Shown: positions 7,791 to 14,435 of the stretch, one piece after another
Position numbering within the stretch: position 1 is the stretch's first letter
Layout: the number at the start of each line of letters is the position of its first letter
Source: Clostridia bacterium
GTDB lineage: Bacteria > Bacillota > Clostridia > Oscillospirales > CAG-272
Direction of reading: 5' to 3'
NCBI GenBank assembly: GCA_017463485.1
Contig: JAFTPD010000007.1
Location: 94,000-157,999 of the forward strand
Length of the DNA: 64,000 bases
Made by a program: the position numbers and the translations under genes
Notes under the pieces: generated by a model
Databases searched by the model: none
What the model saw: the letters and a program-made list of their open reading frames with translations, nothing else
Told to the model about the DNA's origin: nothing

Positions 7791-7882
7791 GCGCCGCAGG
7801 CGCATATCACTGCGTAGCAATATCACTCGCCGCAAGGCGAATATCACTTGCCCGCAGGGCAAATATCACTCCGCGTAGCGGA
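7791..7882. repeat. Array of five different mini-hairpins separated by invariant ATATCAC
   Basis: Five palindromes follow one another: GCGCCGCAGGCGC (7791), TGCGTAGCA (7811), TCGCCGCAAGGCGA (7827), TTGCCCGCAGGGCAA (7848), TCCGCGTAGCGGA (7870). Each of the first four is followed by exactly ATATCAC. The stems differ in sequence but keep pairing, and the loop is always CGCA-like or GTAG-like. The array ends one base before the remB stop codon, in the remB-gyrB gap. Confidence 0.8.
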
Positions 7883-12523: not shown

Positions 12524-12590
12524 CCCACATTTTCATAAATTTACAGCACAACGACAAAAAATTTAAAATTGTATTTTGATTTTTATGCTT

Positions 12591-13171
12591 TAATGCCACT
12601 TTCTGTTGATACAGAAAGTGGCATTAATACTGTAATAGTTTTTTATATTACTTTCTGTCTTAACAGAAAGTAACCAAAGAGTAACCAAAGGTTGGGAGGA
12701 TGAGTCGTGATTTCAATTTTTACAAAATTGAAATTTCACTCCTCAATTCCTCCCTCCCTTTGGAATCCCACCCACCTTGGGGTTTGGTTCGTAGGTGGAG
12801 AACCGTCATACAAACGCTCTTACAAATTATACCGAAAGGTTGCAAATTGGAAATCAGACACGACCGATGTACGCGGCAATTTGTTGGGGGAACAACGCCG
12901 AAAAAGATTTGAAATTTTTCGCCGTTAACTTTCAAATCTCATACGGCTTTAAAACAACTGCCCGCCTAAGGCGTACTCTTACCGACCAAGTTGTCGTCGC
13001 TCCGACGGGAACTTGGCGAGAAGGGTATGTGACAACTTTGGCGCGCAATCATGCCTTGCCGCAGGCTTGCGGCAAGGCGGCGCGCAGAGGAATGAGGGTT
13101 TATTAAGGGAGAAAACCGTGGGTTTTCTCCCTTAATTCGTTCTTGGTTACTTCTGTCGATACAGAAGTAAC
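12591..13171. mobile_element. Hairpin-bounded non-coding element upstream of dnaA
   Basis: About 580 bp bounded by related hairpins: TAATGCCACTTTCTGT/ACAGAAAGTGGCATTA (12591-12626, 16-bp perfect stem), TTACTTTCTGT/ACAGAAAGTAA (12648-12673) and GTTACTTCTGT/ACAGAAGTAAC (13146-13171). The second is followed by CCAAAG and the third is preceded by its complement CTTGG, so they look like inverted ends. Inside are a GC-rich nested stem (GCCTTGCCGCA 13053-13063 with TGCGGCAAGGC 13068-13078, flanked by GCGCGC on both sides) and a 15-bp perfect stem (13103-13117 with 13121-13135). Reading frames inside have no recognisable protein. A non-autonomous insertion or a large structured RNA are both possible. 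Confidence 0.45.
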
Positions 13172-13276
13172 ATAAAGAAGTAACATAAAAACAATTACAC
13201 CATCAACAAAGTGCAGACTGAACAATGCGCGTTTTTATAACGAAAAATTATTGATAATAATATTTTTGAAAATGTG

Positions 13277-13305
13277 TTGAAAAATATTTTTCTGTGTGGT
13301 ATAAT
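13277..13305 (+). promoter_or_regulatory. Sigma-A promoter of a small RNA
   Basis: TTGAAA (13277-13282), 17-bp spacer, TATAAT (13300-13305), with the upstream extension TGTGG. Transcription should begin near 13311, exactly at the first base of the long closing stem of the downstream RNA. No coding sequence follows on this strand before a terminator. Confidence 0.75.
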
Positions 13306-13310
13306 AAACG

Positions 13311-13471
13311 TGCGACACAAGTGAATATTATCGTATTATGCACGGTATGCTATTTTATCATTTGATAAAATGCATACTCTTGTTTCGCATATCGTTGCAT
13401 TACGATCGAAACACTTGTGTCGCAGCAAGGAGTTATGCGTTTTTGTGCGCAGCTTCGGTTGCGCACTTTTT
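13311..13471 (+). ncRNA. Candidate small structured RNA (three-way junction)
   Basis: A predicted transcript of about 160 nt. P1: TGCGACACAAGTG (13311-13323) pairs perfectly with CACTTGTGTCGCA (13412-13424). It encloses P2, GTATGC plus ATTTTATCA (13345-13360) with TGATAAAATGCATAC (13363-13377), and P3, TTTCG and ATCGT (13383-13395) with ACGAT and CGAAA (13402-13411). Between P1 and the terminator is an unpaired GCAAGGAGTTATGCG, whose TGCG could compete with P1. A terminator ends the transcript. It lies between dnaA and an RHH gene and matches no RNA class I know; 6S RNA, SRP RNA and tmRNA do not fit. Confidence 0.65.
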
Positions 13472-13475
13472 ATTT
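13445..13475 (+). terminator. UUCG-capped intrinsic terminator of the small RNA
   Basis: GTGCGCAGC (13445-13453) pairs with GTTGCGCAC (13458-13466) around a TTCG tetraloop, followed by TTTTTATTT. The T run is only on the plus strand, which shows that a plus-strand transcript ends here and not the minus-strand RHH gene. Confidence 0.85.
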
Positions 13476-13658
13476 GCTTTCATCAGCGGGAAACTTGATA
13501 GCACCCTCTTGTGCTTCGAATTCCTTTATAGATTGTCTTATCAGATACAATATATGACCGTTTGCAGAACGTCCGTAATATTTGGATATAAAACGAAGCT
13601 TATAGTGCAATTCGGGATCAACTTCTATTCCAAGATGCTTGTTATTTTTATTTCTCAT
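13470..13658 (-). CDS. Ribbon-helix-helix (Arc-type) DNA-binding protein
   Basis: A 62-residue protein, MRNKNNKHLGIEVDPELH then LRFISKYYGRSANGHILYLI. The strand-helix-helix order and the GRSANGHILYLIRQ phrase match the small Arc-like RHH proteins common in Clostridia. Such proteins bind DNA as dimers and often repress their own or neighbouring genes. The ATG at 13658 is preceded by GGAGG with a 5-nt gap. It is divergent from the SLOG gene, and two copies of a palindrome lie between them, so it is a plausible regulator of that gene (inference). Its 3' end overlaps the terminator of the plus-strand small RNA. Confidence 0.8.
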   Translation of the reverse strand: MRNKNNKHLGIEVDPELHYKLRFISKYYGRSANGHILYLIRQSIKEFEAQEGAIKFPADESK

Positions 13659-13710
13659 AAAAACCTCCAAAAAAATCTTAATTTAAGTACATTTTAAGAT
13701 AATTTTGTGG

Positions 13711-13746
13711 TATAATGGGGTAAGTATACTTGAAATAAGTATACTA
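13711..13746 (+). promoter_or_regulatory. Promoter and twin palindromic operators of the SLOG gene
   Basis: TATAAT at 13711-13716 with upstream TGTGG (extended -10); the -35 (TACATT, 13688-13693) is weak. Immediately downstream are AAGTATACTT (13722-13731, perfect palindrome) and AAGTATACTA (13737-13746), 15 bp centre to centre. Tandem short palindromes over a start site are the usual form of an RHH repressor operator. Confidence 0.6.
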
Positions 13747-13771
13747 AATTTTAAAAAAATGGAGGAAAATT

Positions 13772-14119
13772 ATGAAAATCGCGATAATAGGAAGTCGGAC
13801 GGTGACTGTTAACAACATGGGAGATTATCTGCCCGACGGCTGTGATGAGATCGTGTCGGGCGGTGCGGCGGGGATAGACACCTGCGCTGCGGAATACGCT
13901 GTTCAAAACGGCATCAAGCTGACGGTTTTTAAGCCCGAATACTCAAAATACGGGCGCGCCGCGCCTATCGTGCGCAACAAACAGATAGTTGATTACAGCG
14001 ACATTGTTATAGCCTTTTGGGACGGAAAATCAAGGGGGACGAAGTCTGTGATAGACTACTGCGAAAAGACGGGAAAGCCTTGCAAAATAGTGTTGTCAGA
14101 GCAGGATGTTTTGGCTTAA
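13772..14119 (+). CDS. SLOG-superfamily (DprA/YpsA-like) protein
   Basis: A 115-residue protein with a compact Rossmann-like core: MKIAIIGSRT at the start, VSGGAAGIDTCAAEYA (residues about 30-45), KPEYSKYGRAAPIVRNKQIVDYSD and VIAFWDGKSRGTKSVIDYC. The GSRT...GGAxGID...RN...DxxIAFWDGxSxGT pattern is that of SLOG / DUF2493-like proteins, thought to bind nucleotides or nucleotide-derived ligands. The single domain has no partner fused to it. RBS GGAGG lies 9 nt before the ATG. The function is unknown; homologues occur in phages, integrative elements and bacterial stress loci. Confidence 0.8.
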   Translation: MKIAIIGSRTVTVNNMGDYLPDGCDEIVSGGAAGIDTCAAEYAVQNGIKLTVFKPEYSKYGRAAPIVRNKQIVDYSDIVIAFWDGKSRGTKSVIDYCEKTGKPCKIVLSEQDVLA

Positions 14120-14236: not shown

Positions 14237-14277
14237 AAAAAGCACGGCTCGTTTTATCGACGAGCCGTGCTTTTTAT
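14237..14277 (-). terminator. Bidirectional terminator after the 46-residue lipoprotein
   Basis: AAAAAGCACGGCTCG (14237-14251) pairs perfectly with CGAGCCGTGCTTTTT (14261-14275), a 15-bp stem including A and T runs on both sides. It ends the minus-strand lipoprotein gene and can also stop plus-strand transcription from the SLOG gene. Confidence 0.9.
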
Positions 14278-14294
14278 TTACGTTGATATTATAT

Positions 14295-14435
14295 TTATTC
14301 TGTAATTCCTGCAACTGCTGCAGTAATGTCATCAGCAAGGTTATCTATTGAAAAATCGTAATTGTTGCATGCAACCATAACGATACAAGCCAGAACAAGT
14401 GCTACGATTGCGCTGATGAATCTGAATCTTCTCAT
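14295..14435 (-). CDS. 46-residue lipoprotein of unknown function
   Basis: A very short gene: MRRFRFISAIVALVLACIVM, then VACNNYDFSIDNLADDI, ending AVAGITE. The Arg-rich start, hydrophobic core and VMVAC give a lipoprotein signal, although an earlier Cys (LVLAC) could also be a lipobox. The mature part would be only about 25 residues and acidic. AAAGGAAACG lies upstream as RBS. A perfect sigma-A promoter (14511-14539) and a strong terminator (14237-14277) frame it as an independent transcription unit, which supports a real gene despite its size. No family is recognised; it could be a small envelope peptide or a signal-like lipopeptide. Confidence 0.7.
   Translation of the reverse strand: MRRFRFISAIVALVLACIVMVACNNYDFSIDNLADDITAAVAGITE

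Follow-up and report, generated by a model that had tools for sequence, protein, structure and literature searches.

What is the short, strongly structured segment that lies beside dnaA in a Clostridia genome of the order Oscillospirales (CAG-272), and does it belong to dnaA, to the small convergent gene that follows it or to neither? The window analyzed is 64,000 nucleotides of contig JAFTPD010000007.1 (assembly GCA_017463485.1, positions 94,000 to 157,999), and coordinates below are positions within it. The features at the locus are as follows.

13277..13305 (+), promoter: -35 TTGAAA at 13277-13282, TG, -10 TATAAT at 13300-13305
13311..13323 (+), P1 5' arm with the inferred transcription start (13311); fold and covariation
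13324..13327 (+), conserved unpaired AAUA at the joint of P1 and P2; 79 copies
13343..13350 (+), strand x, the P2 5' arm, which alternatively pairs with y1 and extends P3; covariation and energies
13352..13371 (+), P3 hairpin, AUUUUAUC/GAUAAAAU; minimum-energy fold
13366..13379 (+), strand y1 (UAAAAUGCAUACUC), pseudoknot partner of x', which lies outside P1; covariation
13387..13394 (+), strand y2, the P2 3' arm; covariation
13412..13424 (+), P1 3' arm; fold and covariation
13429..13444 (+), switch strand x' (GGAGUUAUGCGUUUUU), partner of y1 or of the terminator 5' arm; covariation and duplex energies
13445..13471 (+), UUCG intrinsic terminator, stem 13445-13466 and then a T run; hairpin scan and covariation
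13446..13456 (+), terminator 5' arm and loop, antiterminator partner of x' 13429-13439; covariation
13470..13670 (-), small convergent ribbon-helix-helix (RHH)-like gene; no Pfam or NCBIfam hit
13772..14119 (+), neighboring SLOG-family gene (YAcAr/DprA-like), past the RHH-like gene and outside the switch

The Window Copy and Its Neighborhood

The promoter, perfect stem, and UUCG-capped terminator described in the initial annotation are all present. TTGAAA and TATAAT, 17 nt apart and with TG preceding the -10 box, match the consensus at 11 of 12 positions, and the perfect 13-bp P1 (13311-13323/13412-13424) is part of the minimum-energy fold of a 165-nt segment that reaches -66.4 kcal/mol (z -8.3; 0/200 shuffles as stable). 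The T run downstream of the 13445-13466 hairpin is on the plus strand; the region contains about as many terminator-type hairpins overall as expected (4 vs. 3.5). The second small hairpin of the predicted fold comprises 3 bp and sits on the y1 strand, and the conserved core is not the three-way junction originally proposed but P1, P2, and P3 with a pseudoknot. A start site at AGGAGUUAUG was rejected, its spacing being apparently too short and relatives differing by eye.

The convergent gene is taken from resemblance to be RHH-like. A link through DnaA boxes was discarded, since the interval from dnaA to the RNA holds no TTATNCACA. Orthologues of the RHH-like gene were fetched from 11 relatives and the RNA was absent from their flanks (up to 1.5 kb), so that among the 12 loci compared only the window's own carries it; the link to dnaA and the RHH-like gene is therefore local, and the gene was dismissed as a fixed partner of the RNA. 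The window copy is unusual in having this convergent gene next to it and no sense gene.

Several other elements were noted nearby. Between dnaA and the RNA, at 12589-13197, lie repeats that contain TTCTGTNGATACAGAA cores and hairpins. The RHH-like and SLOG genes diverge from a stretch (13671-13771) that holds, by eye, palindromic AGTATACTT-type repeats and an TGTGGTATAAT box, a possible operator. A 46-aa lipoprotein-like small reading frame (14295-14435, minus strand) has a promoter matching the consensus at 12 of 12 positions (14539-14511, minus strand), and past its end lies a nearly symmetric terminator-like hairpin (14237-14275), listed on the plus strand. The only Rfam hit of the window at its gathering score is a Gut-1 RNA (RF01706, 53.1 bits) at 7799-7871 on the minus strand.

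Family Size and Distribution

The initial annotation called the RNA undescribed, and no Rfam 15 family reaches its gathering threshold at this position; the top sub-threshold match scores 17 bits against a cut-off of 52, and a scan at E up to 10 returned only weak matches far under their cut-offs. It had also been regarded as a lone small RNA tied to dnaA, and here the comparison gave a different picture, a dispersed family. With 13277-13475 as query, blastn found 6 places in the genome itself and matches in 29 of 97 genomes (own included). A covariance model (R1) built from 16 copies (alignment A2) identified 14 copies in the genome itself, and copies in 90/146 genomes of the family and 50/147 of the order (each count including its own genome), as well as in 1 of the 199 genomes of a phylum sample, namely its own; the strict filters used in these searches drop weak matches, and the E-values are rough. 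The copy number reaches 16 in one genome (G283).

An exact-pattern scan of named genomes returned at least 119 stretches. Eighty loci among the matches listed (L089-L168) carry Clostridia-type names, apart from one that is merely “Bacillota,” and many of these are labelled as ruminant or rabbit gut. A phage origin was set aside because viral contigs contained no exact match to this pattern and these 80 loci, among the matches listed, are all bacterial; two unannotated fecal “phage” scaffolds (MT835845.1 and MT837627.1) do match by blastn. The family would be a regulatory RNA class outside Rfam, and these searches met it in a single order of gut Clostridia only.

Conserved Alternative Pairings

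Strand x' (13429-13444) is complementary both to y1 (13366-13379) inside P1 and to the terminator 5' arm and loop (13446-13456). This bears on a suggestion that the AGGAG loop and TGCG (13436-13439) confer a switch or target-binding role, with TGCG competing for P1: both motifs do belong to a switch, and the partner of TGCG, as of AGGAGUUAUGCG, is y1 or the terminator 5' arm rather than P1. The alternatives were compared in an alignment (A5) of 68 copies, 37 of which came from loci picked by the x'-terminator pattern, a selection that fixes part of x' and the arm by construction in those rows; most of the first copies had come via blastn through the same 3' block.

Across these 68 copies, pairing in the OFF structure (P1, P2, y1:x', and terminator) holds in 92.6% of cells and drops to 32-58% once it is shifted by 1-3 columns, and 32 of its 43 pairs have two-sided changes; in 16 copies, with P3 left out of the count, the values were 93.4% and 29-62%. 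The compensatory changes named in advance as support for the stems are found in 11 of 13 pairs of P1 and in all 8 pairs of P2 (80.9% of cells paired). The pseudoknot y1:x' comprises 13 pairs with 92.5% of cells paired, 8 of them with two-sided changes, and the terminator stem is paired in 99.0% of cells. P3 contributes just its middle U-A pairs to the ON comparison below, its ends being poorly aligned. The AAUA joint is conserved at 84, 98, 100, and 97 per cent (79 copies).

The ON structure (P1, extended P3, and x' with the terminator arm) has 88.0% of cells paired against 37-57% slid. Its antiterminator helix of 11 pairs is paired in 95.3% of cells, mainly with one-sided changes and with two-sided changes in only 2 of 11 pairs, and for its extended P3 helix the paired share falls to 76.4%. 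Pairing the P1 3' arm with the terminator 3' arm was considered as an antiterminator and set aside, as copies with other P1 or terminator sequences disagree by eye. Among 118 distinct copies, x' is predicted to pair with its own terminator arm at -12.5 kcal/mol, with those of other copies at -11.0 and, when shuffled, at -7.8, and with its own sensor interior at -13.5 compared with -12.0 for others; neither preference was equaled in 5000 permutations, a test that ignores relatedness, which inflates it. An odd x' goes with a matching odd terminator arm, most clearly in L086 and L034.

In the window copy the antiterminator has one mismatch and, at -9.7 kcal/mol as a duplex, is weaker than the median of -12.6. 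Extended P3 (-13.9 kcal/mol) compares with -12.1 for P2 plus P3, and x:y1 is able to fold before y2 is synthesized. Taken in isolation, y1:x' has -14.1, the antiterminator -8.4, and the terminator -16.2 kcal/mol; because the isolated terminator is the more stable of the last two, the ON state must be kinetic or assisted.

Apparent Sensor Exchange

Sensors and flanks were compared in 132 copies with enough flanking sequence (8646 pairs). Sensor identity has a median of 0.54 and correlates with identity upstream at 0.01, downstream at 0.06, and in the terminator, weakly, at 0.28. Forty-two pairs with similar sensors were chosen on the sensor from +31 on (identity of at least 0.76), flanks disregarded; in 37 of them both flanks are at background, and the 5 others include L116/L135, which have the promoter side in common and not the downstream side. 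Over the 42 pairs, identity is 0.27 against a background of 0.26 far upstream (-100..-61), rises slightly above it from -28 on (0.42 vs. 0.33) and departs further within the RNA, with 0.62 vs. 0.40 at +11..+20 and 0.52 vs. 0.27 at +21..+30. In a first set of 31 pairs, selected by background flanks, terminator identity was 0.82 (background 0.80); a single cluster (L018, L080_245, L080_640, L104, L143_6230, and L161) supplies 12 of the 31, so the pairs lack independence. The edge of exchange is less sharp in the 42 pairs than in this set.

The strongest pair joins L139, on a G276 contig, to L011 of G077, from another family, with sensors 94% identical and promoter and gene unrelated. No near-identical sensor was present elsewhere in 12 genomes of the first family or 63 of the second, and the pair could be a binning error because G276 is listed with 4% contamination. 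The downstream gene start is common and the sensor different in 13 further pairs, 7 of which involve L002, with a sensor of short type.

Tandem copies give a closer view. The genome of the window has an array (contigs C11 and C9, which would form one array) of 5 readable units with sensors 60-74% identical, promoters 78-96% identical, and x', terminator, and first codons 93-100% identical; the fully read units before the last hold just 27-28 codons of an SLOG-like gene, and the complete gene stands at the end of the C11 array. The SLOG label of this gene is weak, a related protein at L143 having E 0.0046 and the one at L080 no Pfam hit. The array of leaders with 27-28-codon gene starts that run into stop codons, at L080 (1-1733) and L081 (5139-5852), extends to two contig ends and precedes a full SLOG-like gene. 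Two tandem copies in G276 are identical over 61 bases to just past the -10 box and 61% identical thereafter. At L217 (1752-2310; G283:C48 10251-10809), three leaders stand in direct series with no intervening gene; every one of them possesses promoter-like boxes and a terminator, and a single gene comes after the third.

From these comparisons the sensor domain appears to move largely independently of promoter and gene, either by DNA recombination through the conserved blocks or by way of cDNA. The cDNA route would make the sensor a promoterless cassette copied via its own transcript, the leader cDNA replacing the sensor of another copy. It predicts that the 5' edge of exchange falls close to +1, in rough agreement with the observed edge, which is located between about -28 and +4, and annealing at the conserved x' block would define the 3' edge; we nevertheless regard this route as highly improbable. 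If true, it would mean that leaders are re-sorted among surface and accessory genes. Swapping of sensors between promoters and genes would in itself make the family a natural model for RNA-sensor exchange.

Genomic Position and Proposed Mechanism

Two covariance-model searches (93 and 75 matches) left 140 copies after filtering, and 120 of these have a Shine-Dalgarno sequence and start codon within 150 nt downstream of the terminator stem, at a median distance of 26 nt, compared with 30/129 on the divergent side. This asymmetry points to a cis-acting leader. The scan found no such start downstream of the remaining 20, the window copy among them. The other 13 copies in the same genome end, by eye, about 19-32 nt ahead of a Shine-Dalgarno-bearing ATG start, 4 of them preceding shortened or contig-cut frames. 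The agreement of promoter and stem start pointed out for the window copy extends to the family: in 124 of 137 copies, against 29% of shuffles, a hexamer resembling the -10 box stands at the corresponding distance.

Twenty-eight downstream proteins, hand-picked for variety from the 120, were scanned; 16 had a Pfam match at E up to 0.01 and 12 had none. The matches comprise BspA-type leucine-rich repeats, S-layer homology, dockerin, CHAP plus lectin, AMP-binding enzyme, SPFH/zinc ribbon, TM2, DUF6809, radical SAM, and a few weak ones, and many downstream proteins begin, by eye, with a lipoprotein-like signal. The protein at L086 (8487-9527) scores above cut-off with TIGR02167, the PARCEL surface repeat of NCBIfam, and below cut-off with an LRR adhesin model. 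The family precedes surface lipoproteins, leucine-rich-repeat proteins, and many genes of unknown function. No pathway is common to the genes of the scanned proteins, so they suggest no ligand; the trigger, once found, would reveal a signal common to genes through which these bacteria deal with their environment.

Comparison between sequences establishes how widely the family is spread, where it lies relative to promoters and genes, and that its pairings are conserved and covary. It is probable, in our judgment, that the family is a class of cis-acting transcription attenuators, riboswitch-like in build, whose sensor behaves as an exchangeable cassette. Transcription would begin at the first base of P1, and the sensor domain (P1, P2, and P3) would govern whether y1 is free. 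In the OFF state, free y1 would bind x' in the pseudoknot, making x' unavailable to the terminator 5' arm, so that the terminator folds and transcription stops. In the ON state, y1 would be sequestered in the extended P3 hairpin (x:y1) and x' would join the terminator arm as antiterminator, letting polymerase read on into the gene. We infer both this ON/OFF assignment and the control of readthrough by the alternative states in cells. The window copy would yield a terminated RNA or, on readthrough, an RNA antisense to the RHH-like gene.

The promoter and strong terminator could instead bound a whole gene for a trans-acting small RNA, with a constitutive terminator and only incidental proximity to other genes. 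The 20 copies lacking a sense start in the scan fit that reading, as do three consecutive G283 copies with no gene between them, and the window copy on its own is compatible with a free-standing gene. The family is probably not such a gene, given the one-sided placement of Shine-Dalgarno starts, and in a free RNA the conserved complementarity of x' to its own terminator arm would serve no obvious purpose; we consider this explanation improbable. We see a similarly small chance that the family is a mobile or repeat sequence, akin to the IS-linked mobile attenuators of Naville and Gautheret (2010, PMC2965389), with the terminator before genes by chance. Many copies ahead of unrelated genes, similar sensors between unrelated flanks, and tandem arrays would follow from such mobility. 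Set against it, there was no transposase among the 28 hand-picked proteins and no match to the one exact pattern in viral contigs, and deep divergence of the sensors together with two-sided compensation points to a selected RNA function.

Compatible with attenuation, and unlikely though less so than these two, is the idea that the window copy regulates the RHH-like gene as a switchable antisense RNA. Its geometry is suitable, readthrough past 13471 running antisense through 13470-13670, and an RNA-RHH link is not unique to it: three copies in G054 (C10, C14, and C15) directly precede RHH-like paralogues, the one compared being 33% identical to the window's over 51 residues. The RNA is nevertheless missing from the flanks compared for the orthologues in the 11 relatives, leaving a single case, and the window antiterminator is weaker than the median. 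Antisense readthrough into the RHH-like gene by this copy is possible, and attenuation remains our preferred account of the family.

Comparison with Known Systems

Riboswitches with intrinsic-terminator platforms consist of a 5' leader with a structured sensor and mutually exclusive antiterminator and terminator. Judged on its sequences, the family would work like such a riboswitch or attenuator, being riboswitch-like in its 5' leader, P1-closed sensor, pseudoknot, antiterminator/terminator choice, and directly downstream gene. It has a conserved structured leader before coding genes, the window copy being without a sense gene, and covariation indicates mutually exclusive structures coupled to the terminator. 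It differs in having no Rfam match, in downstream genes of no common pathway, and in sensors that diverge to a median of 54% identity and appear to be swapped between loci. T-box leaders likewise make an antiterminator/terminator choice in Clostridia; unlike them, the window RNA has no T-box match in the Rfam scans, and the family's genes examined show, taken together, no relation to tRNAs or amino acids. As regards leader-peptide attenuators, no conserved start was visible by eye in the 68-copy alignment, and P1 starts at +1.

The family is apparently uncatalogued. No earlier description came up among the literature listings searched or in passages of PMC11109978, PMC8632094, PMC2965389, and PMC8040213, and an earlier unnamed prediction is possible. 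The family could be among the 3161 structured RNA candidates from human microbiomes, 508 of them directly ahead of genes, of Fremin and Bhatt (2021, PMC8040213), although it was not recognizable in passages of that paper. With the mobile attenuators of Naville and Gautheret (2010, PMC2965389) it has in common that similar attenuators stand ahead of unrelated genes. By comparison, no transposon link was noticed here, the sensors occur with unrelated promoters, and a complex sensor is combined with two conserved alternative folds.
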